NCBI GenBank assembly: GCA_021797555.1
Contig: JAJZZM010000020.1
Location: forward strand, 62,001-126,000
Source: Thermoplasmata archaeon
Lineage (GTDB): Archaea > Thermoplasmatota > Thermoplasmata > Thermoplasmatales > Thermoplasmataceae
Direction of reading: 5' to 3'
DNA length: 64,000 bases
In this document: positions 3,577-50,693 of the stretch, in pieces
How the letters are laid out: each line of letters begins with the position of its first letter
Position numbering within the stretch: the stretch's first letter is position 1
The notes under the pieces: model-generated
Told to the model about the DNA's origin: nothing
What the model saw: the letters and a program-made list of their open reading frames with translations, nothing else
The model's database searches: none
Program-made: the position numbers and the translations under genes

Positions 3577-4732
3577 AATCATCAAACTCTTTTTTTATTT
3601 TTTTTATAGCATCCTGATTTTCCATTATGTATAATACTGCATTTACAGCCGATTTTATTGCTATGGATAATGTACTTATATTATATTCAGGATTTGCGGC
3701 ATCCCTAAACTCATCAGAATGCCCTGGCAAATTGCTTCCTATCTTCATATCTATATGACCTACCGGCACTTTCATGCTTACATTTGCTTCGTCTGTACTG
3801 CCCGATGCAATTTCATCACTTTCATCTATATTTATGGCTTCTATGTTAAATTTTTTTAATTCGTTGCACAATATTTTATCGATTGTTTTATTGAATTTAT
3901 ATTCTGTATATACTGGCATTAAATCCTTTATATTTAATGTTGTTCCAAAACCATCCGATACTGATTTTACCAGTTTCTTTATTTTATCAACAAATGGAAT
4001 TAAAAATTTATAGGATGTTGACCTTATATCAACTTCCAGAACTGCCTTATCTGGAACGACATTGGATGCTTTACCACCCTCTCTGATTATCATTCCTATT
4101 ACCAAATGCTTATCGTTTTTTACTGAATCTCTCATATTATTTATTGCAATATATGATGTTACTAATGCGTCTAAGGCATTTATTCCATAGCTTGGAGATG
4201 CAGCCATGTGGGATGCTATGCCATTAAATGTAAATTCTATTTCGGCGTCTGCCAATGCCTTCGAACCCACCCCCCAGCGGTCATCAGGATGCATGCCTAT
4301 TACAAAATCTATATTATTGAATGCGTTATTATCCGCCATTATTGCCTTACTGCCGGCATAATCACCTATGCCTTCCTCTGATGGGGTACCAAAAACAACA
4401 ATTTTTCCTTTTTTTATTAAATTTTTCAGCACTATTGCTGTGCCGTATGACCATGCTGATATTAAATTATGGCCACAGGAATGACCATTTGGCAAAGCAT
4501 CATACTCTGTTAATAATCCCACTACCGGGGTACCGATTCCATATTCAGCCCTAAAGGCCGTTTTCATATTCATATATGGATTTATTACAGTAAAACCATT
4601 TTCCTTTAATTTGTCTATTATCAATTTTGATGATTTATATTCACTGCTGCCCAGCTCCGCAAAATTATATATTTCCTTTGATAATTCTATTATTGATGAT
4701 TTTTTTTCATTTAGTAAAGATTCGATGTCCAT
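3569..4732 (-). CDS. M20-family metallo-amidohydrolase / aminoacylase
   Basis: At 387 residues this is the usual size for the M20D group. Visible motifs are LLTEYDALPNGHSCGHN (metal-binding), GTPSEEG (catalytic Glu and metal ligand) and IGMHPDDRWGVGS. A dimerisation domain with IRSTSYKFL lies in the middle, and GHSDEFRDAA supplies the last ligands. Relatives remove acyl or aminobenzoyl groups from amino acids or cleave dipeptides. Together with the overlapping S66 peptidase gene downstream it looks like a peptide or conjugate degradation operon in the cytoplasm; there is no signal peptide. The substrate cannot be predicted. Confidence 0.87.
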   Translation of the reverse strand: MDIESLLNEKKSSIIELSKEIYNFAELGSSEYKSSKLIIDKLKENGFTVINPYMNMKTAFRAEYGIGTPVVGLLTEYDALPNGHSCGHNLISAWSYGTAIVLKNLIKKGKIVVFGTPSEEGIGDYAGSKAIMADNNAFNNIDFVIGMHPDDRWGVGSKALADAEIEFTFNGIASHMAASPSYGINALDALVTSYIAINNMRDSVKNDKHLVIGMIIREGGKASNVVPDKAVLEVDIRSTSYKFLIPFVDKIKKLVKSVSDGFGTTLNIKDLMPVYTEYKFNKTIDKILCNELKKFNIEAINIDESDEIASGSTDEANVSMKVPVGHIDMKIGSNLPGHSDEFRDAANPEYNISTLSIAIKSAVNAVLYIMENQDAIKKIKKEFDDYE

Positions 4733-8525: not shown

Positions 8526-8738
8526 ATGATAGGAAATATAGAAGATTGGGTTATTATTGCAATTGTTGTAGGACTTTTGTTTTTAGGTCCTAAAAAGATT
8601 CCTGAGATTGCAAGATCTCTTGGAAGGGCCAGAGGTGAGTATGAGAAGGCCCAAAAAGAGATGAATAATGAGATCCATAATGCAACAAATCCGGCAATTA
8701 ACAATGAAAACAAAAATGAAAATGATAACAAAAATTAA
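8526..8738 (+). CDS. tatA: Sec-independent translocase subunit TatA
   Basis: A 70-residue protein with the TatA layout: a short N-terminal membrane helix (WVIIAIVVGLLFLGPKKIPE), the hinge FGP-like motif present here as FLGPKKIPEIARSLG, an amphipathic helix, and a charged, Asn/Lys-rich tail. It forms the pore-like part of the twin-arginine system, which exports folded proteins. The ATG has AGGTGG upstream. An ORF on the opposite strand (8498-8731) is only a shadow. tatC follows after a 44-bp gap. Confidence 0.93.
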   Translation: MIGNIEDWVIIAIVVGLLFLGPKKIPEIARSLGRARGEYEKAQKEMNNEIHNATNPAINNENKNENDNKN

Positions 8739-8782: not shown

Positions 8783-9532
8783 TTGAAGGAATTAGGCAAA
8801 CGCATTAAAAATATATTAATTCCATTATTAATAATATTTTTTATAGTATTTGTATCAAACCCTCTAAAAATGAAAATAGGTATTCAAAATTCTTTTTCTG
8901 TTATGATTTTTCATATTATTTATTCTAATTTACCTGAAGGATTTTCAGTTATTGCAATAACACCTTTTGAGGCAATAATGGTTGATGTCAAGTTATCATT
9001 ATTGATTTCATTGATAATAATAATGCCATGGATATTATTGCAGATATCTCTGTTTGTAGGGCCAGCACTATATAGTTATGAGAGGAGATTACTGATACTG
9101 TCTATAATACCGGTTATAATGTTTTTTATAGCTGGATTTTTATTTGCAGCCAGTTTAATTATTCCATTAATGTTTAAGTTTGCAGACACACTTGATATAT
9201 CTATGGGTATCCTTCCAACGGTAAGTGCTTCATCCTTTGTGCTAACCATTTTTATAATAGAGTTCTCAATGGGGTTGAGCTTTGAAATTCCGATGTTCAT
9301 GCTATCCCTTACATATTTAGGTGTTATAAACAGTAAGCAAATAAAAAATAACTGGAGATATGGAATAGCAGGGTCGTTTGTCATAGCGCTTATAATTTCA
9401 CCTGGTGCCACAGGAGGTTTTGTGGAGACATTAATAGGTTTAATAATTTCCGGATTGTACTTTTTGGGTTATGCTTTCTCCGTAAAGGCAGAAAAATGGA
9501 AAGTGAAAAACAATGAAAATATGGATGTGTGA
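8783..9532 (+). CDS. tatC: Sec-independent translocase subunit TatC
   Basis: A polytopic protein of about 250 residues with six predicted membrane helices. It has the conserved TatC core: TPFEAIM, MPWILLQISLFVGPALYSYERR, and SMGLSFEIPMFM. TatC recognises twin-arginine signals. The start is uncertain: no ATG lies at the expected place. I place it at the TTG at 8783, with GAGG five bases upstream, which gives KELGKRIKN at the N-terminus. An ATA codon at 8759, preceded by GGGTGG, would add eight acidic residues. The end overlaps the next gene by 20 bp, so the tat genes and that gene are one transcript. Confidence 0.92.
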   Translation: MKELGKRIKNILIPLLIIFFIVFVSNPLKMKIGIQNSFSVMIFHIIYSNLPEGFSVIAITPFEAIMVDVKLSLLISLIIIMPWILLQISLFVGPALYSYERRLLILSIIPVIMFFIAGFLFAASLIIPLMFKFADTLDISMGILPTVSASSFVLTIFIIEFSMGLSFEIPMFMLSLTYLGVINSKQIKNNWRYGIAGSFVIALIISPGATGGFVETLIGLIISGLYFLGYAFSVKAEKWKVKNNENMDV

Positions 9533-11702
9533 AAAAGAAAATATTGGATTTAAAAGCGAGAGCGATGCTATAAGGCATACAATTTCAACAGATCACGTTG
9601 TGAAATTACATAGGTTCTGGAGAAATATTCCTGATAATATAAAAATTGTTGAGACTGGCAATAAAAATAATTTGAAAAACCAGAATATTGCTATTGTTTC
9701 TGGCAACATGAAAGATGCAGATATAATACCTGCTGATCCAAGACAGAGAAAAAGAAAATTTTTAAAACTTGCTGGCCTTGGAATTGGAATATCAATAGTA
9801 TCAATGACAGCACTGAATAAGACATTGAATTTGCATAATAAGTCATTTGATTCGTCACCTGAGATAGGGGCAACGATAACATCCCAGGGCATTATATTGC
9901 CAGGACTTACCCAGGATCCAATGAACCCGTATCCAGGTCAGGTATGGTATAGGTCAGATCTTGGCCTTGTAAAATGGTATGATGGCATAAATAATACAAA
10001 CAATATAACTTCTGCATGGAATAGTTTCAGAGGGAAACCGTACATTACAGTTTCATCAAAAGGACTCTCAAATAATTTATCGGATATTGCAAATGATGGT
10101 GCAGATTTTGGGCCGGATACACCATATGGCTCAGGAACAGGACTTACACACACATCTGGAATACAGGAAGCATTAAATTATGCTGGAACAAATGGGGGCG
10201 GCATAATAAAATTAAGTGCCGGCATCTATTATATATCCGATATACTATATTTACAATATGATAATACAAAAATAGTTGGAGAAAATATGGGTTCAACTGT
10301 ATTGCACCTTAAATATCCATTTAATGCGCTTGGTTCAGGTGGATTCCAGAATATAAATGCAATTGTAACAACAGACCCGACAGGGTCAGCCGAACCAGAG
10401 TATACAGGCATAGAAAATGTAACACTGGACGCATCAGAAGCTGGTAACGCGAAAGCCGGGATAACAATAATAATGTTCCGCTGGGGTAAACATTTAACAT
10501 TTAAAAATATAAAAATGGTAGGATTAAATGGAACTTCACCCAATCCAAATGGTTTAAACGGCGGAGTTGATTTTGTTGATATAGATAATTATATAGCAAA
10601 ATCAAGTGATTATGTTGAATCGGGTTCAACATGTGGAACACTTGTATTAACCGGTGGCAGCAATATACATGTAAGCAATGTTTATATGGATGGCCTGTGG
10701 GAGTTTGATGGCAATGTAACACCTGATTCCACTTTTGAAAATATAGAAATGCACGGCAACGATATATTATTGGATGGCAGTAGTTCTGACAGCTGGGGAT
10801 ATACAACATTTAGAAATGTAAACGTATTTAACGGATTAAACTGGGCATTAAATGGATTTTTACAGGTTAATGAAGGCTGTTACTTCATAAATTGCTATTT
10901 TGAGGGTGTTGTAAGGGCATCTGCAAGGCACACATATTCATGTGAATTTAATGGTGGATTAGGGTCTGTTAAGGATTTTAGGAATAACAGGGTTTACATG
11001 AACAGTTCAGCATTATTCCCCCAGGGTGTTGGATTGCCAATGGGAATAAGTGCATATGAGGATTCTGATGGGAAATATGTAGCATATGTTACCGGAAATA
11101 TATTCATAAATCTAACTGCAAACAGTGTTCAGGGCGGTTCTGCCTTTAGTATAGGCGGGTTCAATGCACCTAATGACACCGATAATTTGCTGATAATATC
11201 AAACAACATATTTCCAACAGGTTTTTCGGGATTGTTTGGATACAATATACAGGCGGCGTCACTCATACTTATAATAGAAAATAACACAGGGCCGTTTTTA
11301 ACAAATATGCAGAATACAGTTGGAACACCAGCAACAATAACCGCATTGCCAGGGAGTTCAATAAAAAATAATAGTTGTTTATCAGTAAGTTATCCATTTT
11401 CAGGCAGTACGGCATCAATACCAGAAAATCCTCCAGCCAGTGGAGCAGTATATCAGAATACAAATCCATTTGATATAGAACTAAACATACCTGTATATGC
11501 ATCTTCATCAGGTACGTCAGGTTATGTTACTATATATAAGGGAGTATCTGAATCAGTACAAACAATTGGGCGTCAGTATGTTGATGGAAATACAAATTCC
11601 AAAAATACACAGCTTGTCACATTAAGGGTAAAATCCGGATGGTATTATAAAATTACAGCATCTAATGCCACAATAGGAACTGCGGTGATAATAGGTGAAT
11701 GA
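9513..11702 (+). CDS. Beta-helix (pectate-lyase-like) protein with Tat-like signal, in the tat cluster
   Basis: A 729-residue protein. The first 70 residues hold a lone Cys and three His (C6, H22, H28, H33), like half of a C2H2 finger. Next comes RKRKFLK (about residues 77-83) followed by a hydrophobic stretch (LAGLGIGISIVSM). This resembles a twin-arginine signal, but with KR in place of RR and displaced inward. After a short PYPGQVWYRSDLG motif (near 145), a long right-handed beta-helix-type region begins with DGADFGPD and IQEALNYA and runs to about residue 600. No lyase residues are evident. It overlaps tatC by 20 bp, so it may be that system's substrate. Its start and end motifs recur in the protein at 45109-46407. 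Confidence 0.75.
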   Translation: MKIWMCEKENIGFKSESDAIRHTISTDHVVKLHRFWRNIPDNIKIVETGNKNNLKNQNIAIVSGNMKDADIIPADPRQRKRKFLKLAGLGIGISIVSMTALNKTLNLHNKSFDSSPEIGATITSQGIILPGLTQDPMNPYPGQVWYRSDLGLVKWYDGINNTNNITSAWNSFRGKPYITVSSKGLSNNLSDIANDGADFGPDTPYGSGTGLTHTSGIQEALNYAGTNGGGIIKLSAGIYYISDILYLQYDNTKIVGENMGSTVLHLKYPFNALGSGGFQNINAIVTTDPTGSAEPEYTGIENVTLDASEAGNAKAGITIIMFRWGKHLTFKNIKMVGLNGTSPNPNGLNGGVDFVDIDNYIAKSSDYVESGSTCGTLVLTGGSNIHVSNVYMDGLWEFDGNVTPDSTFENIEMHGNDILLDGSSSDSWGYTTFRNVNVFNGLNWALNGFLQVNEGCYFINCYFEGVVRASARHTYSCEFNGGLGSVKDFRNNRVYMNSSALFPQGVGLPMGISAYEDSDGKYVAYVTGNIFINLTANSVQGGSAFSIGGFNAPNDTDNLLIISNNIFPTGFSGLFGYNIQAASLILIIENNTGPFLTNMQNTVGTPATITALPGSSIKNNSCLSVSYPFSGSTASIPENPPASGAVYQNTNPFDIELNIPVYASSSGTSGYVTIYKGVSESVQTIGRQYVDGNTNSKNTQLVTLRVKSGWYYKITASNATIGTAVIIGE

Positions 11703-40949: not shown

Positions 40950-41022
40950 GGCCGGGGTGGGGTAATGGATATCCTTGGGGACTGTGGATCCCCGGACCCG
41001 GGTTCGATTCCCGGACCCGGCC
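40950..41022 (+). tRNA. tRNA-His (GTG), target of the integrated element
   Basis: G-1 (40950) pairs with C73 (41022), the tRNA-His identity pair, and is encoded. The acceptor arms GCCGGGG and ACCCGGC pair at six positions; position 7 with 66 is G against A, a mismatch. The anticodon stem GGGGA/TCCCC encloses CTGTGGA, anticodon GTG. The T-arm is CCGGG-TTCGATT-CCCGG. The 3' end, from 41010, is repeated at 49851-49863 with T in place of the mismatched A. Confidence 0.9.
41010..41022 (+). other. attL: 3' end of tRNA-His
   Basis: CCCGGACCCGGCC, the T-stem and acceptor end of tRNA-His. It matches 49851-49863 in 12 of 13 bases. This copy came with the element if integration followed the usual tRNA pattern. 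Confidence 0.7.
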
Positions 41023-41089
41023 TCTTCTCAAAAGTTTAATGCCTTACTGGTTTTATAATTAATATTAGTGTGTTATTATAATATAAAGG

Positions 41090-42043
41090 TCAGGCTTCTC
41101 TGGCTTTATCGCTTTGCTCGGAGGTGTTTTTTTCGTCTATGGCAATTCGTCTTAAATCACCGTAGAATTGAGAAACATCTGGATTTGAGCTGTTTTTTAG
41201 TTGCCTCTGGAACAGTTCAAACTGCATGTTATATAATGTATCCATCAACTTATGGCACCACAGTTTATTGCGTATGGCTAATTTGATTTTATTAAGTTTT
41301 TCCAAGTCTAAATTCACTGCATGGTCAAGAATGCGTTTAAGAACAACAGGTATCCATTTATCTTCCAGCAGGCACAGTGATTCATAAACGTTGAGCCATG
41401 TGGAATCGATATCATCATCTCTTTCCATGGATCCAAGGATTTTGCGTTCATTGAACAGATTACCTTCCACCTCTCTAATAATCCTCACCAGTGGCTCTTT
41501 TATATTCATTCCTTTTTCAGTCCTATATCTTAACGCCCTTGCTATGAACGAGGATAAACTCACTTCAAATTCACCTCCTGATATGGAGCCACTAACGGTA
41601 TATTTCAGCAGCCGAATCAGTGTAAGCAGGTCATCGTCGCTTGGCAGGGTATAATACTGATAGGGGGATGGGTGTCCACTTTTACCAACTATCTCATTAA
41701 GTGCTATTTTCAGTTTTTCATTTTCATCGTGCTTTTTTTCATTTTTTTCATGATACTCCTGCCTTACCACTTCCTCTATTACACTCATCGCCATCCTGAA
41801 AGTCTGGAGTGTGATATCACTGCCAGAGGGCAAATATAAATTCCCAACCTTGACTATGCTTCCCTCTTTCGTTAGGATATCAATGTTTCTGGACAGCGTG
41901 GAATCAGGGATTTTAAGTGCTTCTCTCATATCTTTGAAGCGAAGTCCCTCCGGGTGTTCGTTTACGTATTTTAACAATACTTTGGTATATTTTGGTTTTA
42001 CTTTCGTTATTATTGTTTTATTTCCATTTTTACTTTCATTCAT
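41090..42043 (-). CDS. Winged-helix regulator of the element
   Basis: A 317-residue protein. Residues 15-75 look like a winged helix: KYTKVLLKYVNEHPEGLRFKDMREALKIPDSTLSRNIDILTKEGSIVKVGNLY. The rest is mostly helical, with a charged segment (YHEKNEKKHDENEKLK) and a long C-terminal helical domain (SLCLLEDKWIPVVLKRILDHAV). No family is recognised for the second part. It is the only leftward gene at the tRNA end and faces the AbrB-like gene across 51 bp, so it may set expression of the rightward operon. Confidence 0.65.
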   Translation of the reverse strand: MNESKNGNKTIITKVKPKYTKVLLKYVNEHPEGLRFKDMREALKIPDSTLSRNIDILTKEGSIVKVGNLYLPSGSDITLQTFRMAMSVIEEVVRQEYHEKNEKKHDENEKLKIALNEIVGKSGHPSPYQYYTLPSDDDLLTLIRLLKYTVSGSISGGEFEVSLSSFIARALRYRTEKGMNIKEPLVRIIREVEGNLFNERKILGSMERDDDIDSTWLNVYESLCLLEDKWIPVVLKRILDHAVNLDLEKLNKIKLAIRNKLWCHKLMDTLYNMQFELFQRQLKNSSNPDVSQFYGDLRRIAIDEKNTSEQSDKAREA

Positions 42044-42094
42044 ATATAATGAAATGTAAGAGAATATTTAAACTTATGCTTTCTATATCTCTTT

Positions 42095-42271
42095 ATGGAA
42101 ATAATAAGATATCAGAAACTGTTGCCCCGTGGCAAGTTTACCTCTGATGTAGTTATCCCGAAGTGGTGGCTCGAAATGCACCAACTCACCCCGGGTTCTA
42201 CAGTTAGAGTCATCGCTTCGCCTGAAAAGATTGTGATTGAATCCATCAAAGAACCAGAGGCGGTGGAATGA
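42095..42271 (+). CDS. AbrB/SpoVT-like small DNA-binding protein
   Basis: A 58-residue protein with the swapped-hairpin AbrB pattern: QKLLPRGKFTSDVVIPKWW, LTPGSTVRVIASPEKIVIESI. Such proteins are transition regulators or antitoxins. TTTAAAC lies about 25 bp upstream of the ATG, giving a leaderless start. The stop overlaps the next ORF (ATGA). It is the first gene of the element's rightward operon. No toxin partner is obvious. Confidence 0.7.
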   Translation: MEIIRYQKLLPRGKFTSDVVIPKWWLEMHQLTPGSTVRVIASPEKIVIESIKEPEAVE

Positions 42272-42345
42272 GTTGGCAGAACGTCTTTGAATTATGGGAG
42301 GAATTAAAGAAGGACACTAAAGAAAAAAAGAAGAAAAAGAGGTAA
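42268..42345 (+). CDS. 25-residue basic micro-protein
   Basis: A short ORF starting in the stop of the AbrB-like gene (ATGA) and ending 6 bp before the next start. The sequence MSWQNVFELWEELKKD is a short amphipathic helix; the tail is nine lysines and arginines with few other residues. The spacing and overlap support translation, but at this length it could be chance. Confidence 0.4.
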   Translation: MSWQNVFELWEELKKDTKEKKKKKR

Positions 42346-42351
42346 ATATAA

Positions 42352-42663
42352 ATGGAAAAAATAGAAGATATTAAGCAATTAAATAATACATTGACATTTA
42401 TAAATGTTTTCACAGATTATGTGAAAGGCATAGGACCATTTGGAAGCCCATTCGCATTTTTATCATATGGCAAAACCTATGATGAAATGCTGGATTTTGC
42501 GAAGTCTTCACCAGAAGTTATTGATTTCATTTTTGATTTTATTATTAATAATAAGCAGCAGTCGGTGATAGACAAATCAATAAATGTTCTAATGGACACT
42601 GGACTTTCAATAGGCGAGATTAAGGAAAAAATAATAGCAAAAATAATCGGGGTGAAACAATGA
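42352..42663 (+). CDS. Small protein of unknown function in the element
   Basis: A 103-residue helical protein with no recognised motif. It contains TFINVFTDYVKGIGPFGSPFAF and a C-terminal half (DKSINVLMDTGLSIGEIKEKI) that resembles a helical bundle. It overlaps the helicase gene by 4 bp (ATGA), so it may work with it, for example as a loader or regulator. Confidence 0.65.
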   Translation: MEKIEDIKQLNNTLTFINVFTDYVKGIGPFGSPFAFLSYGKTYDEMLDFAKSSPEVIDFIFDFIINNKQQSVIDKSINVLMDTGLSIGEIKEKIIAKIIGVKQ

Positions 42664-44609
42664 ACACAGATGACGAGGCAATAAAAAAGGCAAATGACAT
42701 ATTAAAGAATTTCGAGAATAATGATAAATCAAATTTTGACCTTGGAATTACTGACGGATTTTATTTTCCCGGCACGATTGAAATAACAGATTCCTTAACA
42801 AAGAGATACAATTTCAAGTCAATACGAAATCCAGAGGCAAGGAACGAAAATATATATTATTTTAATGGGCAAATATATGAACGGGCAGAGGAATTTATCA
42901 AAACCGAAGCACATTATGAACACCTAAAGCAGTGGAGGGAAATGGGTGAAAGGACTTCAGGAGACTCTAAATATTCCACACTAAATGCAAAACTCAACAG
43001 GCAAATACATGCAGGCCCGTCATCATTTCAGATTAATGAAGTCGAAGAAATGATAAGAAGAACAACGTTTACAGATGAAGAAATGAACCCGTCTGGTTTC
43101 ATTCCATTCAAAAACGGGTTATTGAGCCTCAAAACGAGAAAATTAGAGCCATTCAGCAGGGATTACTTCTATACTTACCAAGTAAATGCAAATTATTTGG
43201 AAAAACATATAACGCTAAAAGATGTGCCGATGTTTTCAAATCTGCTTAATACCGTGTTTTATCCAAAGGATATACCAATGGTTTTAAGTTATCTTGGATA
43301 CTCCTTTTATCCAACATTCCCAGCACAGAAAACCTTATTTATTCTTGGCAGGGAGAGAATAGGCAAAGGAACGACAATTAGGGTTATTGAGGAGGGATTA
43401 ATGCCAAAGGGTAGTGGAGCCGTTTCATTAGCCCGTTTGCTTACAGGCGAGAGATTTCAGTTTACAGGTATCGAGGGAAAGAATCTGCTTGTGGACGATG
43501 AAAGCAGAAGAAGGTTCAGGCATGATGCTGTTTTAGACTGGTCGGCGTTCTGCAACTTATTCGGCGGGGATAGGCTTTCCCTAGAGCCCAAAGGCAAGGA
43601 AGCACATGACTACACTAGCAAGGCAAAGGGCATATTTTTAGGCAATCTGCCATTTATTCCTGTTTATGACCCGCCAACAATAGCAAGGATTTTACTGGTA
43701 GAAACCAAGAACGAAAGACCTAAAACTGAAATTGATGACTATGATAAAAAAATAATTGAGAAGGAGGGAGATGCAATAGCAACACTATTAATGCAGGTAT
43801 TATTCAAGCTTATAGACCGTAATTTCAAATTCCCTGGGCAGATGAGCGATGATGAAACAGCAGCAAAATTTGAATTGCTTTCCGACCCTGTAAGATTTTT
43901 TATTGAAGACAGAACAGAACGGAACGAAGGTAGCACTGTTCGTTCTGATGAGGCATATTCATTATTTGAGAAATGGCTTAAAATTAAGGGAATAACCCAT
44001 ATTGCAAGTCATACATTCATGCAGAGATTCGGCAAAGAATACCCAAGAAAAAGGGCTGGAACCCGCAAAAACAGATATTATATCTTCACCAACTGCATGA
44101 TAATAGATGATGATTCTGATGATGTAAAACAACTTGGACACGGGGATAATTCACAGGAAACCCTGAAATACGGGGATTCTGGAGATAAAAAAGACGGTGT
44201 CCAAGTTAAATCCGATACACAACGCGTGAGAAATCTAAAAAATATAGAAAAAATAAATATAAAAGATGTCGGGGTTAACTTGGACACGGAGAAAAATCTC
44301 TCTGGAAACCGTGATTTTCAGGCTTCTGGTGAAAATAATCCCGTGTCCAAGTTGAATCACAACTTACAAAATGAACCCAAAAGAGACGATGACCTTTCAG
44401 ATGAAATATCTAAAATAAAAAATAGAATAATCGAGGTCATTAAACATGGAGATCCATCCAATGAGTTATCAAATATTCAATGGCTAATAAAAGTGGATTT
44501 TGGACTTGATGCAGAGGAAACAGAAAACATCGTTAGAGCCATGGTCGATGAGAAAATGCTATCATTTGATGAATATAAAAGGCGTTTGAAGGTGGTAAAA
44601 CGGAAATAA
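42660..44609 (+). CDS. SF3/D5-type replicative helicase of the element
   Basis: A 649-residue protein. After a D5_N-like region (PSGFIPFKNGLLSLKTRKLEPF) comes the helicase core: Walker A GRERIGKGTT (about residues 229-238), Walker B NLLVDDESRR (near 275-284), and sensor FLGNLPFIP. A winged-helix region follows (SHTFMQRFGKEYPRKR). The last 150 residues are charged and probably flexible, ending in a small helical domain. Typical partners have a primase domain at the N-terminus; here the first 100 residues are too short to hold a full AEP primase. It should unwind DNA at the element's origin. Confidence 0.85.
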   Translation: MNTDDEAIKKANDILKNFENNDKSNFDLGITDGFYFPGTIEITDSLTKRYNFKSIRNPEARNENIYYFNGQIYERAEEFIKTEAHYEHLKQWREMGERTSGDSKYSTLNAKLNRQIHAGPSSFQINEVEEMIRRTTFTDEEMNPSGFIPFKNGLLSLKTRKLEPFSRDYFYTYQVNANYLEKHITLKDVPMFSNLLNTVFYPKDIPMVLSYLGYSFYPTFPAQKTLFILGRERIGKGTTIRVIEEGLMPKGSGAVSLARLLTGERFQFTGIEGKNLLVDDESRRRFRHDAVLDWSAFCNLFGGDRLSLEPKGKEAHDYTSKAKGIFLGNLPFIPVYDPPTIARILLVETKNERPKTEIDDYDKKIIEKEGDAIATLLMQVLFKLIDRNFKFPGQMSDDETAAKFELLSDPVRFFIEDRTERNEGSTVRSDEAYSLFEKWLKIKGITHIASHTFMQRFGKEYPRKRAGTRKNRYYIFTNCMIIDDDSDDVKQLGHGDNSQETLKYGDSGDKKDGVQVKSDTQRVRNLKNIEKINIKDVGVNLDTEKNLSGNRDFQASGENNPVSKLNHNLQNEPKRDDDLSDEISKIKNRIIEVIKHGDPSNELSNIQWLIKVDFGLDAEETENIVRAMVDEKMLSFDEYKRRLKVVKRK

Positions 44610-44629
44610 AAACACTTGATGATTTTGAC

Positions 44630-44842
44630 ATGCCTAAGTATCTAAATTCATTTCTTGGCTGCGATGTCGTGGTATATTTTAGAACAGAAAGCGGGGGATT
44701 AATATCACACAGAGGGACACTTGAAACTGTTAACAAATGGCACATAAAATTGCAGACCTGCACCAAATCTGGTTTTCATTTTAAAATTCCAACAAAAAAT
44801 GTTTATTCAATCAGAAATGGAAAGTCAAATAAACGTGGATAA
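44630..44842 (+). CDS. LSm-like small protein 1 of the element
   Basis: A 70-residue protein. FLGCDVVVYFRTESGGLISHRGTLETVNKWHIKLQT has the length and strand order of the Sm1 motif, and FKIPTKNVYSIRNG stands where Sm2 (I-x-G-x-N-V) is expected. Upstream codons are open, so a slightly longer N-terminus is possible; the ATG at 44630 is 20 bp after the helicase stop. It should form a ring that binds RNA or single-stranded DNA, but the fold is inferred from pattern alone. Confidence 0.6.
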   Translation: MPKYLNSFLGCDVVVYFRTESGGLISHRGTLETVNKWHIKLQTCTKSGFHFKIPTKNVYSIRNGKSNKRG

Positions 44843-44853
44843 ATTATATAAAT

Positions 44854-45081
44854 ATGGAAAATATAGAATTAAGAAATAACGAAAATCCAAGAAACTACTC
44901 TAACCCTGAACCACTCAACACATCGCACATTGGCAGGATTGTTTCAATAACCATGGTCAACGGCAGGACGGAAAGAGGAAGGCTGAAATCCCTGGGGGCT
45001 TACATGCTTTCTGTGGAAATGCCAGATGGAAAGGAAAAGATTGTAAACAAAGGTGCAATCATTTCAATGACAATTTTATGA
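44854..45081 (+). CDS. LSm-like small protein 2 of the element
   Basis: A 75-residue protein. After a polar N-terminus, HIGRIVSITMVNGRTERGRLKSLGAYMLSVEM reads as Sm1 (strand, loop, NGR, GRL) and KIVNKGAIISMTIL as Sm2. The match is closer to LSm/Hfq than that of the previous gene, and the two are tandem. The start is 11 bp after that gene's stop, without a strong SD. Its role is unknown. Confidence 0.65.
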   Translation: MENIELRNNENPRNYSNPEPLNTSHIGRIVSITMVNGRTERGRLKSLGAYMLSVEMPDGKEKIVNKGAIISMTIL

Positions 45082-45108
45082 TAAATTAAGATGAATGGAG
45101 GAATTATT

Positions 45109-46407
45109 ATGGCAAATGCAACAATACCGTATATAATTGCGGAAGACGGTTTTTATTATATAGCGTATAAAGAAAAAGTAAAAGTTCCATATGTGGTCGT
45201 ATCAGATAAGGGAATTGCAAATGGATTATCGGAAGAGTATAATGATGGGTGGGACTTTGGGCCGGACTCATATAATACTGATTCAAACGATACTATTCCT
45301 TACACAAAAACAGTTGGAATAAAAGAGGCGATTGACTATGCCAATCCCGGTCCAGATGCAACCGTATCAGGTGAGGTTATGCTCATTGGTATTTTTGGCA
45401 TATCGGAAACAATAGTTATGCCTAATGGCTGCAAGGTTGTTATTAAATCAAGCGGATACGAGAGGGCGGCAATATACCCGATTGTATCAGGGATAACACT
45501 AATTCAGGGAACACCCGGGACACAGTCTAGTGTTTTTCAGTTTGACGGAATTACATTTACCACAGAGGAGATTTCAGGCACCACTGTTTCGGGGGGTTAT
45601 GGATTCTATTACCAGCCAACTGCATTCACCAGCGAGATAGTCAGGTTTAATGATTGCTACTTCAGGGGTTCGTGGAATAATAATGTGGTGTCAATCATCG
45701 GTGTGGATGATGTTCGCTTTGATAATTGCCTGTTCGGTGGTTCTCTCTCAACAGGGCCTGCATTATATACAATTAACACAATAACATTCACAAACTGCCA
45801 TTATGCCTCATACCATGACGGAATTCACATTGAGGGGTCAAACATCGGACCGTCAAACACACTGACAGCAATAGGTTGCAGGTTCAGGACTTACAGCGGG
45901 ATTGCACCATTGCAGCTAACAAACTACGGAAATGTTTCCATTAACCTTTTTGGAAATACATTTGATGCAACAGAGGTATTCGTATTAATAGACAGCACCT
46001 CCACTGTGCCATTCCTTACTATGATAGGAAATCAGTCGCTTAATAATATAACATCGTCTCCGGTATCAATTCAGAGTGGTGGCGTATTAAATGGATGGTT
46101 TGAGCGTGGAAATTCATTTGACCTATTCCTTGAAACAACACTTGCCGGTGAAACAGCAGGAAATGTTATAGCAAAGGTCATAGACAGCAATCCGGGATAC
46201 AAAAAGATATTATTATATGTAAATGGCTATGAGAATGACACAACAACAGACCAGAGCCTGACATATCCGATAGCATTCAGCACCATTGCAGAAATTACAT
46301 CAAATACAACAGGTCTAACAGTATCAACGACCAATACGGCATTAGCTATAACATCTCCGGACGCAACAACTATATATAGCGGTATCATAGTTGTTGAGGG
46401 GTATTAA
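45109..46407 (+). CDS. Beta-helix (pectate-lyase-like) fibre-type protein of the element
   Basis: A 432-residue protein. The start used is ATG 45109, eight bases after GGAGG (45097-45101); an upstream ATG at 45091 overlaps that site. It begins with PYIIAEDGFYYIAYKEK. Next comes VPYVVVSDKGIANGLSEEY, NDGWDFGPD and GIKEAIDYA, then a right-handed beta-helix region with repeated short strands (FNDCYFRGSWN, FDNCLFGGS, FTNCHYAS). The end ITSPDATTIYSGIIVV matches the end of the tat-cluster protein. There is no signal peptide. It looks like a virion spike or fibre, or a cell-surface sugar-binding protein. Catalytic residues are not evident. Confidence 0.75.
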   Translation: MANATIPYIIAEDGFYYIAYKEKVKVPYVVVSDKGIANGLSEEYNDGWDFGPDSYNTDSNDTIPYTKTVGIKEAIDYANPGPDATVSGEVMLIGIFGISETIVMPNGCKVVIKSSGYERAAIYPIVSGITLIQGTPGTQSSVFQFDGITFTTEEISGTTVSGGYGFYYQPTAFTSEIVRFNDCYFRGSWNNNVVSIIGVDDVRFDNCLFGGSLSTGPALYTINTITFTNCHYASYHDGIHIEGSNIGPSNTLTAIGCRFRTYSGIAPLQLTNYGNVSINLFGNTFDATEVFVLIDSTSTVPFLTMIGNQSLNNITSSPVSIQSGGVLNGWFERGNSFDLFLETTLAGETAGNVIAKVIDSNPGYKKILLYVNGYENDTTTDQSLTYPIAFSTIAEITSNTTGLTVSTTNTALAITSPDATTIYSGIIVVEGY

Positions 46408-46601
46408 TGAGTATAATTGATTTGGTTTTCGGCATTGTAGTTCTCATACTGGGGCTTTTACTGCTTGCAGTGGAGTATTTGTTCGTATCATATGTAGGAT
46501 TAACATCCGGCAATTTTAGTCATGTAATTTTATTTTTATTTGTAGGTATTGCAGGCGTTGTAATTGGAATAGTCGCAATTATCATTGGTCTTAGAAAATA
46601 A
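46407..46601 (+). CDS. Small two-helix membrane protein
   Basis: A 64-residue protein, almost wholly hydrophobic: a first helix (LVFGIVVLILGLLLLAVEYLF, about residues 6-26), a short loop with TSGNFSH, and a second helix (VILFLFVGIAGVVIGIVAIIIG). The start overlaps the stop of the beta-helix gene (TAATGA), so translation is coupled. It could be a virion membrane protein or a holin-like protein, but no specific family is evident. Confidence 0.65.
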   Translation: MSIIDLVFGIVVLILGLLLLAVEYLFVSYVGLTSGNFSHVILFLFVGIAGVVIGIVAIIIGLRK

Positions 46602-46707
46602 TATTTTTATAAAGCACGTTTTTAAAAAAGATTTTAGGCAATATTTTTTAGTGGACACATATTTCTACATGACATCATTTTAATTGTGTTTTTAGGGGAA
46701 TATGACC

Positions 46708-47619
46708 CTATTCAGTATGCATTATTCCACCTATCAGGTGTATGTGGCTTTTTTCCTTTTCTTTCTTTGCCAATGACACCTGTTTTTCATTGATATCTTC
46801 CAGCAGCCTGTTCATGTTATTTAGTATCGTGTTAAGCTTGTTCATCTCCTCATCGACAGCCTTCTGAAATCTTTTAGAAGCCATCGCATTAAACGAATTC
46901 ATTGCCTGTTCCATTGACTTTTTCATTCTGTCGGCGTATCTCTTTTCTAAATCAGATAGGCGTTTGTCTGCAATGCCAACAGTTTGTTCCACCAGCTTTG
47001 AAGCGACCTCATCACCGATATGTTTCAGGTCAGCGTCAAAGAAACCCATGGATCTCCACTCCATTATTACCTGATTAAGAATATAGAAGATTGAATCAGA
47101 CCTCTGCATACCTTCCTTTACCAGCACGTCTATGGTCTTATTAACTTCAGGCATTTTAAGGAATTTTAGGAATACTGAATAATATTGCATATCCTTCGGG
47201 TTATTCCCGGGCATGAGGTCATCTGGCTCCAGGCCCATATCCCTAAACTTCTGCACCAGTTCAATGGCATATTCTAGGTCATCAACATCATATCTGTTTA
47301 TATACTTGTCTACACGGTCATATACATGTCCGTCCATGAATATTCCATGCCTTGCCATGATTCTGGCAATTACTTGACCATAAACATCATCATCGATATG
47401 CCTCTGGATATCATTTCCTATGCTGTCGTATTTGGCAATTAGATTGTCAACACCGCCATTTTCCTCTAACTTCTCCTCTGGCTTCCCTTCTGTATTCTCT
47501 TCCTTCAGCCACTCGTATATGGTCTGCCTAGAAACGTTCAGTGTCTTGGCTATCTCACTCTTGGAATGGCCCTGCTTTGCAAGTTCTATCGCTTTCAATC
47601 TGTCCTCCGTCTTTGCCAT
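46708..47619 (-). CDS. HTH protein with coiled-coil, likely binds the repeats at 47651
   Basis: A 303-residue protein. Residues 8-42 hold a helix-turn-helix (AIELAKQGHSKSEIAKTLNVSRQTIYEWLK). The middle is helical with RYDVDDLEYAIELVQKF and MEWRSMGFFDADLKHI. The C-terminal 90 residues are a long coiled coil (LSDLEKRYADRMKKSMEQAM, NKLNTILNNMNRLLEDIN). It is leftward and its promoter region contains several TGTAAA repeats, which may be its binding sites. It could be a repressor, a partition protein or a plasmid replication initiator; the sequence does not decide. Confidence 0.7.
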   Translation of the reverse strand: MAKTEDRLKAIELAKQGHSKSEIAKTLNVSRQTIYEWLKEENTEGKPEEKLEENGGVDNLIAKYDSIGNDIQRHIDDDVYGQVIARIMARHGIFMDGHVYDRVDKYINRYDVDDLEYAIELVQKFRDMGLEPDDLMPGNNPKDMQYYSVFLKFLKMPEVNKTIDVLVKEGMQRSDSIFYILNQVIMEWRSMGFFDADLKHIGDEVASKLVEQTVGIADKRLSDLEKRYADRMKKSMEQAMNSFNAMASKRFQKAVDEEMNKLNTILNNMNRLLEDINEKQVSLAKKEKEKSHIHLIGGIMHTE

Positions 47620-47650
47620 AATATGTAAATCAGAATTAGGTTTATATTAG

Positions 47651-47745
47651 TTTACACTGTCAGTTTACATGTAAAAAAGGTGTAAAAGAATGTGTAAAAA
47701 ATGCGTAAAAATATCCGAATAAATAGATAAATAGACCTATTTATT
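47651..47745. promoter_or_regulatory. TGTAAA repeats and inverted repeat: operator or replication origin
   Basis: TTTACA at 47651-47656, the perfect 12-bp palindrome TTTACATGTAAA at 47664-47675, TGTAAA at 47681-47686 and 47693-47698, and CGTAAA at 47704-47709 lie 11-13 bp apart, about one helical turn. A 9-bp inverted repeat AATAAATAG/CTATTTATT follows (47718-47726 and 47737-47745) in very AT-rich DNA. This is the only long gap in the element (47620-47922) and sits before the HTH gene. Confidence 0.55.
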
Positions 47746-47922
47746 ATGCTTAATATTGATATCTATATGTCATATAAATTTAGGCATACGTCCCGAAAAA
47801 AACCTTGCAGTTTTTGCAAATTTTTGTTTCTTTTGATTATCTAGTTTTGCTGTTCGCTTATTTGTATGTTTATTATTAAAAAGTGCTATAAACTCTTATA
47901 AACCTTTAAATCATTTCTTTTT

Positions 47923-48411
47923 ATGACAATATTAGATTATTTGCCCGGTATTCCAAGAACATACTGGAAAGATTATGTAAAAGCCATTGAGCCGACAAAG
48001 CCACTGGTGATAAATTCAGGAGAGAGAGGAGTTAATCTGTTCCCGAGCAATCTCACAGACAAGAGAGGAATTATCCTTGAATTTGTGCTTTCCGTCAATA
48101 ATCCCGGGATAAAATTCAATGTGAGGATAGACAACAGGACAATATCGGCAACACTCCAGCAGATTTATGATGGCGGATATTATAATTACTATATTCCTGA
48201 TACCCCGTTCATAAGCGAATATAACACCACAGACAATGCATATACCGTAAATATAATGGGTCAATACCCGTTCAGGAATGATGTGTATGTCTATGCCGAT
48301 AATTTAACAACATCACCTGCAATCATAAATGTAATGGGATTTCGGGCAATAATATTTGAGCCGGGGTTCTATAAAAAACTTGCAGAATTAAAAAATGGAA
48401 AAGAGGACTAA
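47923..48411 (+). CDS. Beta-rich protein of unknown function in the element
   Basis: A 162-residue protein, rich in Asn, Tyr and Ile with alternating strands: LDYLPGIPRTYWKDYVK, GIILEFVLSVNNPGIKFNVRIDNRTISAT, YNYYIPDTPFIS, YTVNIMGQYPFRNDVYVYADN and FRAIIFEPGFYKKLAELK. It could be a virion protein, but no match is recognised. CTTATAAAC about 25 bp upstream of the ATG gives a leaderless start. It is convergent with the integrase gene. Its pattern also fits a carbohydrate-binding beta-sandwich. Confidence 0.6.
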   Translation: MTILDYLPGIPRTYWKDYVKAIEPTKPLVINSGERGVNLFPSNLTDKRGIILEFVLSVNNPGIKFNVRIDNRTISATLQQIYDGGYYNYYIPDTPFISEYNTTDNAYTVNIMGQYPFRNDVYVYADNLTTSPAIINVMGFRAIIFEPGFYKKLAELKNGKED

Positions 48412-48498
48412 TATTTTAAATAAAAATTAATTCATTCCCAGAAGGCTTTTCACAAAAAGATAGCCAAGTCAGTATCATAGCAGATTGCCATTTATTTA

Positions 48499-49794
48499 TC
48501 ATTCATTTTTCCCTGATAGTTCCTTCTGGAATTTCTCCTTCATGCCCGGGTTCTCCATTATCTGCTTCAGCACAGTTTCAAGGATCAGGTCTTTGAACTC
48601 TTCTGGAAATGATTCTACAATCTTTTTGGTTGGAGCATCCACAACATCTGACTTGATTATTGCAGTTTCGATTTCCTTCGCCTCATCTTTGAACTTCTTC
48701 TCCGTGAGTGAACTATCGAGTATCATGCCACACTTCCAGCAGAACCTTGCTTTTGGGTCGTTTGGCTCTTTACATCTTGGGCATGGGAATGGTTTTTGTG
48801 ATTCTATAGGATTCTCATCCTTTACCTCAATTCCGTATGCTTTTAGTATTGCATTATCCTGGTCTCTTCCAGATAAGTGAACATAAGTCTGGGTCATCCT
48901 TGAACCGTGAATCCAGCCCATCTGTGCCTCTAATGGTGCTTCAGTCACTCTCGAAGCAAGTATAGTGGCCCTGGTATGCCTGAACAGATGTGGATATATC
49001 CTCCTCTCTATCTTTGCGTCCGTTAAACCTTTTCTTATGAATTTATATATGTTTGCATGCTCTAATCTTTTCCCCCTATTATCAGATTCAATGCCACAGA
49101 AGAACCATGCATTATCATCATTTCTCATAGGATGTGCATTCTGCCATTCCCTCAAATATGAAATTGAATTGCCTACAATCCTTACTTTTCTATATCCTGT
49201 CTTTCCTGTTACGGATAATATTGCACCATATTCATCAAACTCTACATCCTTGTTCCTTAGTGTTAGAAGTTCTCCTATCCTGCATCCAGAATCATAAAGA
49301 GTATAAACTATAGCCCTATCCCTTGGATTTTTCAGCACTGATACTAATTTCTGCACCTCCCCCTCTGTTATTAGGTTTTCCGGCTTAACATTCTTGTTTG
49401 GGTGATTGTTTGTTTTGACCCATGATATGCATTCTGGCTTTTCTTCCTTCAGAAGCCATGGATAAAACTTTTTTAGTGTTGTCTTATAGTTCTCAATGCC
49501 CCAATCGGAGTATGTGCCCTTTTTGTTCCAGCCCTTTATTTTTCTTCCAATCTTGCCTTCCATCAACCTTGAAAGCAATGCCTTGACATCTTCAACTGTA
49601 GGCAATAAAAAAGAATCTGGCATAAGCGATGCAATCTGCCTTAACCTTATAGCATAAAAATAAAGGCGGTCATTTGACAGACCGTTAAGCCTTTGTTCAT
49701 TCAAAAACTGTTTAATTTTATCCTGATACTCCCTTGGAATGCCCGATTTGCGAAGTCTTTCCTGCTCTTTTAATAATTCATTCGATGATAACAT
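48499..49794 (-). CDS. int: Tyrosine integrase with C-terminal zinc ribbon
   Basis: A 431-residue site-specific recombinase. The N-terminal SAM-like/core-binding part (about residues 1-140) ends in the catalytic domain: Arg in SGCRIGELLTL (about 171), Lys in TGKTGYRKVRI, HLFRHTR (His and Arg near 269-272), and the nucleophile Tyr in TYVHLSG (near 304). A zinc ribbon with CPRC and CWKCG (about 335-353) and a helical tail follow. It sits inside the element near attR, and the gene is whole. Integration does not split it, unlike SSV1-type integrases. Confidence 0.95.
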   Translation of the reverse strand: MLSSNELLKEQERLRKSGIPREYQDKIKQFLNEQRLNGLSNDRLYFYAIRLRQIASLMPDSFLLPTVEDVKALLSRLMEGKIGRKIKGWNKKGTYSDWGIENYKTTLKKFYPWLLKEEKPECISWVKTNNHPNKNVKPENLITEGEVQKLVSVLKNPRDRAIVYTLYDSGCRIGELLTLRNKDVEFDEYGAILSVTGKTGYRKVRIVGNSISYLREWQNAHPMRNDDNAWFFCGIESDNRGKRLEHANIYKFIRKGLTDAKIERRIYPHLFRHTRATILASRVTEAPLEAQMGWIHGSRMTQTYVHLSGRDQDNAILKAYGIEVKDENPIESQKPFPCPRCKEPNDPKARFCWKCGMILDSSLTEKKFKDEAKEIETAIIKSDVVDAPTKKIVESFPEEFKDLILETVLKQIMENPGMKEKFQKELSGKNE

Positions 49795-49850
49795 AATAAT
49801 GATAATGTATTAATATATTTAAATTTAGGCATTGAACTTTTATTCTAATG

Positions 49851-49863
49851 CCCGGTCCCGGCC
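49851..49863 (+). other. attR: displaced copy of the tRNA-His 3' end
   Basis: CCCGGTCCCGGCC. It differs from attL (41010-41022) only at position 6, T for A. It lies 56 bp past the integrase start. In the tRNA the T would restore pairing with G7. Confidence 0.65.
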
Positions 49864-50201
49864 CATTATTAAATTTGGATTTCCATAATGTTTTTGGAGA
49901 TTATTTATGAATTTATTGAGATATACAAATATTGCCACATAACCATCAAAGAGCCCTTAGTAGATAATAAATGTGGATAATGTATGTAGGTAATAGATAT
50001 GTGTTAATAAAAAGTATTGATAGCTTAATTTATATGGTAACCTATTTCATGATATTTACATAATAGCATTTTTGGTATATGTATACATGGAAGTTCTACA
50101 AATTACAGTGCTATAAAGATGCTTTATTAAATTAAAATTTATCTATATTGTTCTTATCTTGCCGGCATCAATGAAAATTATAAATTGTGATATTTGTTTA
50201 T
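49864..50201. other. Non-coding flank right of the element
   Basis: No ORF or RNA gene is seen in these 338 bases. If the element is excised, this DNA would lie directly downstream of tRNA-His. It is AT-rich, with no strong repeat. Confidence 0.5.
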
Positions 50202-50693
50202 TCAATTAATCATTTTAACCATGTTTACTATCCTTTTCCAGGATGAATCAAAATATTCACTGCCTTCTGGATGGTACCCCAGGGATTCATAATAGTCTTC
50301 AAGATTTTTGATGGCCTCGATCTCAATCCTTCTAATGTGTATTGGCCTTGCAATATTGTTTTCAACAACCTTTAATAGATCTGCCCCTACACCTGAACTG
50401 CCACTACCCATGCTGAAATTTCTTGCAAGCATTTCTATAACGATTTTTTCAGGATTATTTATACCTGGCACAAATCTGAACATGATAACACCATCTATCA
50501 TTCTATCCTGAGATTCACGGACAATTACGGTACTATTATTCTCCATATTCCATTCATAAAAATATGATAATTTATAATCACGCATGGTTCTATCTTCCGA
50601 AGTAAATTTTTTGTGTATATCCTCTTTCCTTATAAGTCTAAATCCCGGTGGAAGTTTAACTGTTACGCAATTTTCCAGTGTTACAAGTGGCAT
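50202..50693 (-). CDS. GNAT-like acetyltransferase
   Basis: A 163-residue protein with a GNAT-like layout: IHKKFTSEDRTMRDYKLSYF, strand-rich VIVRESQDRMIDGVIMFRFVPG, EKIVIEMLARN, GSGSSGVGADLLKVVENN where motif A (acetyl-CoA pyrophosphate loop) is expected, and EAIKNLEDYYESLGYHPEGS, a typical end helix with the GNAT YEKLGF motif. The substrate is unknown. It is transcribed alone, between the integrated element and the deoxyhypusine synthase gene. Confidence 0.75.
   Translation of the reverse strand: MPLVTLENCVTVKLPPGFRLIRKEDIHKKFTSEDRTMRDYKLSYFYEWNMENNSTVIVRESQDRMIDGVIMFRFVPGINNPEKIVIEMLARNFSMGSGSSGVGADLLKVVENNIARPIHIRRIEIEAIKNLEDYYESLGYHPEGSEYFDSSWKRIVNMVKMIN

Follow-up and report, generated by a model that had tools for sequence, protein, structure and literature searches.

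We have analyzed a stretch of 64,000 nucleotides (called here the window) from contig JAJZZM010000020.1 of a Thermoplasmata archaeon, an acid-loving host of the Ferroplasma type, in which an element of 8,841 bp is inserted at the 3' end of a tRNA-His gene. This tRNA gene (anticodon gtg, 40950-41024, plus strand), the target of integration, was detected by ARAGORN and by the Rfam model RF00005, and is the only copy in the window. Its end contains the attL repeat (CCCGGACCCGGCC, 41010-41022, plus strand), while the attR repeat (CCCGGTCCCGGCC, 49851-49863, plus strand) is located upstream of the integrase, 57 bp from its start. The two share 12 of their 13 bases, and when both strands of the 64 kb were scanned allowing one mismatch these were the only two places recovered, with none on the opposite strand. 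An earlier note, made from the letters of the sequence, had proposed an element integrated between direct repeats of the tRNA-His end, and comparison with the nearest congener (G007) bears this out. There the tRNA-His (3749-3821 of the locus L086) is uninterrupted, the left flank is 81-89% identical to that of the window, and the tRNA end passes straight into sequence matching window positions 49848-49937, to the right of attR. Besides, the first gene after the element (50202-50693) has a counterpart 88% identical at the empty site. The opposite situation, that is, the same genes fixed at this place in relatives with no att repeats, was not found: the G007 locus is empty and the repeats are present. 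The GC content of the element was 0.374, against 0.311 for the rest of the window.

The att core was also found independently in a genome of another genus (G019, locus L067), where the tRNA-His end recurs as an exact 14-nt copy (CCCGGTCCCGGCCC) next to an integrase about 80% identical to that of the element. In the elements with this type of integrase (L057, L063, L073 and that of the window) a distance of 55-65 bp separates the integrase start from the second att copy, which is upstream of it. The repeats differ at a single base, for which attL has A whereas attR and the G007 tRNA have T, and so the A was most likely brought in by the element. The 3' end of the host tRNA-His is now supplied by the element. 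At position 66 of this tRNA the element-borne A faces G7, where G007 and G019 have U, so that the acceptor stem of the host tRNA-His now has a G-A mismatch.

The integrase (48499-49794, minus strand) is a tyrosine recombinase of 431 amino acids (PF00589, E 1e-19) with a C-terminal zinc ribbon. As the earlier note had read it, the enzyme is intact: R172, K198, H269, R272, W294 and Y304 are all present, as are the four cysteines of the ribbon, which are invariant across the family, including pleomorphic archaeal viruses. Its closest named relatives are actually found in two of these viruses, GAPV1 and ThalV2 (33-35% identical over more than 80% of the length). The family also occurs in non-viral elements. 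The same genome (G000) has further integrases of this type on contigs C14, C19, C20 and C24, the one on C19 (L069) having a PrimPol-type gene downstream of it, and these probably mark additional elements.

The main replication gene of the element (42660-44609, plus strand) codes for an SF3 helicase of the P4/D5 type, with the Walker A motif GRERIGKGT, the domains D5_N and DUF5906 and a C-terminal Pox_D5. TIGR01613 scored just under its cut-off, and the family profile matched PDB 7ola (E 3e-13). No primase domain, as had been claimed, and no primase gene was found in the window element by domain searches of its proteins or by comparison within the family, and the place that the PrimPol gene takes in relatives is occupied by a 103-aa orphan (42352-42663, plus strand). 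Downstream, in the same orientation, are two small genes that the earlier note had both taken for LSm-like. The claim stands for the second one (lsmB type, 44854-45081, plus strand, 75 aa). It was detected by its family profile (E 3.1e-28) and has weak Hfq and LSM matches in Pfam. Moreover, the family profile finds the Hfq-like protein of the Thermococcus plasmid pIRI48 (E 8e-12), supporting its assignment as an LSm/Hfq-like protein. The first one (lsmA type, 44630-44842, plus strand, 70 aa) is a conserved partner protein, recovered at E 3.2e-6 by a family profile that was built without it. Its comparison with LSm by hhalign gave a probability of 1.4%, and it is possibly LSm-like, a candidate identity only.

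We have run the helicase, lsmA and lsmB profiles over all retrieved loci. Helicase and lsmB occur together in the window element and in ten others (L055, L056, L058, which is the same as L096, L059, L060, L062, L100, L135, L136 and L137), and helicase with lsmA additionally in L057 and L063. Most of these elements adjoin tRNA genes, of differing identity (Arg, Gly, Pro, Leu, Phe, Cys and Asp), and several have repeats of the tRNA end of 10-21 nt, of which the shortest are individually unconvincing. Their integrases belong to two unrelated groups. A PrimPol is present in most of them, fused in L060 and apparently in L062, and as a separate gene in L056, L058, L100, L135 and L137. The same gene order had been proposed as something to look for in other Thermoplasmatales, and it does recur as far as the helicase/LSm cassette is concerned. 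The cargo is not constant: L096 carries an MvaI/BcnI restriction-modification pair together with a SIR2-STAND protein, the helicase element L093 a methylase with an Mrr domain, and L059 an HNH nuclease. No close copy of the window element was found elsewhere in 117 genomes of the order, and an order-wide DNA search for CRISPR spacers gave short marginal matches only. Acquired gene clusters next to tRNAs are reported to be many in Thermoplasmatales (PMC2718499), and genomic islands at tRNAs have also been reported in acidophilic archaea (PMC12302457). However widespread, this family of integrating plasmid-like elements is apparently undescribed. No description of it was found in the open-access literature searched, and the gene set of the window element, claimed before to be new, matched no described element in the collections and literature searched. 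As a separate observation, several small proteins of L055, L056, L057, L059, L100 and L132 start with PCNA-interaction-like motifs (QSTLETFL, QATLDQFI, LTLDRFI, QSSLSQFS) that suggest recruitment of the host sliding clamp.

The most novel feature of the element is one that the earlier reading had overlooked, a nested palindrome inside the helicase coding region (44131-44353, plus strand). Searching for repeats within the helicase genes, we found four copies of the 12-bp motif AACTTGGACACG in that of the window, at 44131-44142 (plus), 44196-44207 (minus), 44277-44288 (plus) and 44342-44353 (minus), with steps of 65 bp. The same order of copies appears in L055 (where the motif is AAGTTGAACACG), L056, L057, L058, L059 and L098, the steps being 65 or 66 bp and the central gap 69-90 bp. 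The four-site order is found with a different motif in L063 and with variant spacing in L136. The strict architecture was present in the window, L055, L058, L059, L063 and L098 (a variant in L136), and in none of 102 codon-shuffled helicase genes or of 74 unrelated open reading frames (ORFs), one extra match in the latter test being a second record of the L058 helicase. The helicases were picked by homology and not by structure, but the pattern had already been seen in them when the test was designed. The copies fall in three reading frames and code for different peptides; therefore the constraint acts on the nucleic acid, and a protein repeat as explanation was rejected.

Together the copies form a single nested stem-loop of about 225 nt, with copies 1 and 4 in the outer arm and copies 2 and 3 in the inner arm. 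The folding energies in the window were -93.6 kcal/mol for RNA (z -11.0) and -50.3 for DNA (z -9.8), and none of 200 shuffled sequences was as good. In seven relatives the z values were between -4.6 and -6.7, and in L056 the value was -2.1, so that the palindrome of the window is better preserved than that of any relative. Across seven elements, compensatory changes were found at 13 of the 24 pairs, as against none in 500 shuffles and 0-4 when the pairing was slid. An Rfam scan gave tRNA and chance matches only, a weak match to MIR8562 at 44134-44350 being the palindrome itself. Other strong folds were seen in the helicase genes of L135 (nt 1346, z -7.1) and L061 (nt 1321, z -5.6), which may hold different origins.

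By analogy with known systems, the palindrome is probably the replication origin, bound by the C-terminal domain of the very helicase in whose gene it lies. The plasmid pRN1 depends on a stem-loop situated just 3' of its SF3 replication gene, whose form and not sequence is conserved among pRN plasmids, and the alpha protein of P4 binds origin repeats through a winged-helix domain (PMC4234260). The palindrome may work as a cruciform, as iterons or at the RNA level. Alternatively, the palindrome could act as a structure in the mRNA, for example as a binding site of the LSm-like proteins or in translation control of the downstream genes. The strong RNA fold and the LSm genes directly downstream are in line with this. 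However, the motif is uniform within each element and varies together between elements, as would be the case for the binding sites of a co-evolving initiator, and the position of the palindrome resembles that of the pRN1 stem-loop. We regard the mRNA explanation as doubtful.

Taking the locus as a whole, we have likely an integrated plasmid-like element, or what PMC6563490 calls a cryptic integrated element, belonging to a family that is spread through the Thermoplasmatales. The traits of such elements for which we have looked are found here: an integrase next to att, direct repeats derived from a tRNA, an empty locus in G007, and a replication gene with no recognisable virion or conjugation genes in Pfam, PHROG and NCBIfam searches. 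A plasmid is preferred because the helicase/LSm core recurs in ten integrated elements with defence or nuclease cargo, and because Hfq-like genes placed after a helicase are already known as a cassette of plasmids; none of the features found in the element requires a virion. The sequence shows that the integrase recombined a circular form of 8.84 kb with the 3' end of the tRNA-His, the tRNA being restored by the element's own end. Under this interpretation excision would rebuild the circle. The C-terminal DNA-binding domain of the SF3 helicase would serve to load this enzyme onto the palindrome in its own gene, which the helicase would then melt. The host primase and replisome would take over, as the element has no primase, with possible tuning of replication, or of its RNA, by the co-oriented LSm-like genes. 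The beta-helix, membrane and 162-aa genes described below would be variable cargo, at the place where relatives have restriction-modification or other defence genes.

Several observations weigh against this interpretation. The primase of most relatives is absent, so that the window element could be replication-defective. The four-site pattern was not found in L060, L100, L137, L135 and L061, and the one in L056 folds weakly. Complementary repeats at four places would also be expected from protein-binding iterons or from an mRNA regulatory hairpin, between which the covariation test does not discriminate. A decayed, immobile island, in which the integrase is still readable but the primase was lost and neither excision nor replication takes place any more, would fit with the missing primase, the mismatch in the att repeats and the lack of a close copy among the 117 genomes. 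Nevertheless, every ORF is open, the catalytic and zinc residues of the integrase are intact, the palindrome is the best preserved of all and the composition is still foreign. We consider such decay unlikely.

A different possibility is raised by the cargo. The 438-aa product of 45091-46407 (plus strand) has a weak beta-helix match in Pfam (E 0.015), in agreement with the fibre-like protein claimed before. Its structure model was poor (pLDDT 40), and the fold search with it gave no significant match. The start codon of the following gene (46407-46601, plus strand) overlaps the preceding stop, and its 64-aa product, which had no Pfam, NCBIfam or PHROG match, shows by hydropathy the two hydrophobic helices of the membrane protein expected there. 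A spindle-shaped virus would be recognised by a hydrophobic two-helix major coat protein with known homologs; the 64-aa protein has the helices, and no such homolog was recovered in these searches. The 162-aa orphan (47923-48411, plus strand), which has no relative in the 117 genomes, is modelled as a beta-sandwich of low confidence (pLDDT 62), consistent with the beta-rich protein of the earlier reading. The element might be a provirus or satellite, a plasmid-type replicon with acquired virion genes. Its capsid or spike, of the jelly-roll type, would then be the 162-aa protein, its receptor-binding or glycan-degrading fibre the beta-helix protein, and a membrane or coat protein the 64-aa one. 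The best PDB match of the 162-aa model was a chain of Sulfolobus polyhedral virus 1 (E 4e-4), followed by birnavirus VP2, but the matches were scattered over jelly-roll and beta-sandwich folds and the TM score was below 0.5 for every one listed; a capsid was not called.

Relatives of the beta-helix protein are the product of window ORF 9513-11702 and proteins of G076 whose genes lie among those for glycosyltransferases. These cellular relatives have twin-arginine-like signals, unlike the copy of the element, which has no signal sequence. The start motif of the latter is also present in a 75-kb tailed-virus contig, in a fibre-like ORF close to a tape-measure-like gene. Such features fit a virion fibre acting on surface glycans, and a cellular role is also possible. 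The product of 9513-11702 is a beta-helix/fibre-like protein of 729 aa with the twin-arginine-like signal RKRKFLKLAGLG, and shares a start motif of about 58 aa with that of the element. Its gene comes after tatA (8526-8738) and tatC (8783-9532), the Tat translocase genes.

Also pointing to a virus are the integrase relatives in GAPV1 and ThalV2, and the fact that half of the genes of PAV1 are common to pTN2 plasmids (PMC3543421). On the other hand, the integrase family is common to non-viral elements too. Capsid, portal, terminase and packaging ATPase were all missing in domain and PHROG searches, as the earlier note had observed for the capsid and the ATPase, and four cargo genes had no PHROG match, a generic helix-turn-helix (HTH) excepted. 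Scans of IMG/VR with the beta-helix, helicase (single sequence and alignment), 162-aa and HTH proteins recovered no relatives, so that no viral contig was seen to encode the helicase, the HTH or the 162-aa protein. The records of the pleomorphic viruses (L140, L141) gave no significant match except the integrase, and their VP3, VP4 and rolling-circle Rep have no counterpart in the element. The beta-helix and 162-aa proteins are virion-like at best. A new virus, a satellite and a non-conjugative plasmid had all been left open before. The comparison favours the plasmid, and a virus is less likely given that the searches recovered neither a capsid or ATPase nor a viral relative. A provirus or satellite origin appears improbable, and slightly more improbable is a new type of virus or satellite that is functional and combines an integrative replicon and intragenic origin with an acquired virion module (jelly-roll-like, signal-less beta-helix and two-helix proteins).

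Among known systems, the cryptic integrated elements of Thaumarchaeota with PrimPol/S3H modules (PMC6563490) are similar in the tRNA-directed tyrosine integrase, the SF3 helicase and the size below 20 kb and, with regard to the family, in the fused or separate primase and the restriction-modification cargo. They differ from the Thermoplasmatales family in lacking its LSm cassette and intragenic palindrome, and from the window member in that this one has fibre-like genes and no primase. In the pTN2/pEXT9a plasmids of Thermococcales, too, the gene that comes right after the helicase is Hfq-like, and they are alike in their primase-polymerase, non-conjugative nature and links to a spindle virus (PMC3543421). 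However, their helicase is SF1 and not SF3, the pIRI48 annotation has no integrase, and the element did not match the pIRI48 helicase and polymerase. Sulfolobus plasmids of the pRN1 family (PMC4234260, PMC3869888) have an SF3 replication protein with a winged-helix domain. The 3' end of its gene is marked by a large stem-loop whose sequence is poorly conserved and which pRN1 requires for replication. There the stem-loop is non-coding, downstream of the gene and of about 100 nt, whereas the one described here has two nested arms within the coding region. Moreover, pRN1 has a fused PrimPol, and the window element does not show the pRN1 trait of AEP primase, SF3 helicase and wHTH in one protein. 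GAPV1 and ThalV2 (Pleolipoviridae record) share the integrase with a zinc-ribbon tail. Small plasmids of the same order, pPO1 of Picrophilus oshimae (with recombinase and restriction-modification genes) and pTA1 of Thermoplasma (PMC3177234), use an Orc1/Cdc6 initiator instead of an SF3 helicase.

Known plasmids of the Thermoplasmatales are few, and no virus of theirs is known to have been isolated (PMC3177234, PMC6336744); tools for genetic work are scarce. With its defined att sites, replication cassette and candidate origin, a compact family like this one is a direct starting point for vectors. The palindrome raises the testable question of whether replication of archaeal SF3-helicase plasmids begins at a nested stem-loop within the gene of the initiator, with co-evolution of the initiator and its site, and the cargo of the window member is a test case for the transition from plasmid to virus or satellite.

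The rest of the element codes mostly for putative regulators, which would control expression and copy number or partition. They are a 317-aa winged-helix protein, a probable repressor (41090-42043, minus strand; MarR_2 in Pfam, E 0.001), with no relative among 61 genomes; a 58-aa AbrB/MazE-type DNA-binding protein (42095-42271, plus strand; PF04014 above cut-off), to which small genes in the helicase neighbourhood of some relatives are similar; and a 303-aa HTH protein found by domain search (46708-47619, minus strand). A defence function for genes of the element was rejected, as the PADLOC matches were generic HTH or marginal only. The 303-aa protein has one ortholog, 49% identical, beside the LSm genes of a partial sibling element in G104 (L132). 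The intergenic region at 47640-47840, with TGTAAAAAATG repeats at 47670-47711 and the sequence AATAAATAGATAAATAGACCTATTTAT, is conserved in L132 and L133, being kept both in G104:C73, where the HTH gene is present, and in G113:C151, where it is absent; a match to the TGTAAA repeats in G005 was discarded as no gene of the element was nearby. This region is a possible operator, partition site or second origin.

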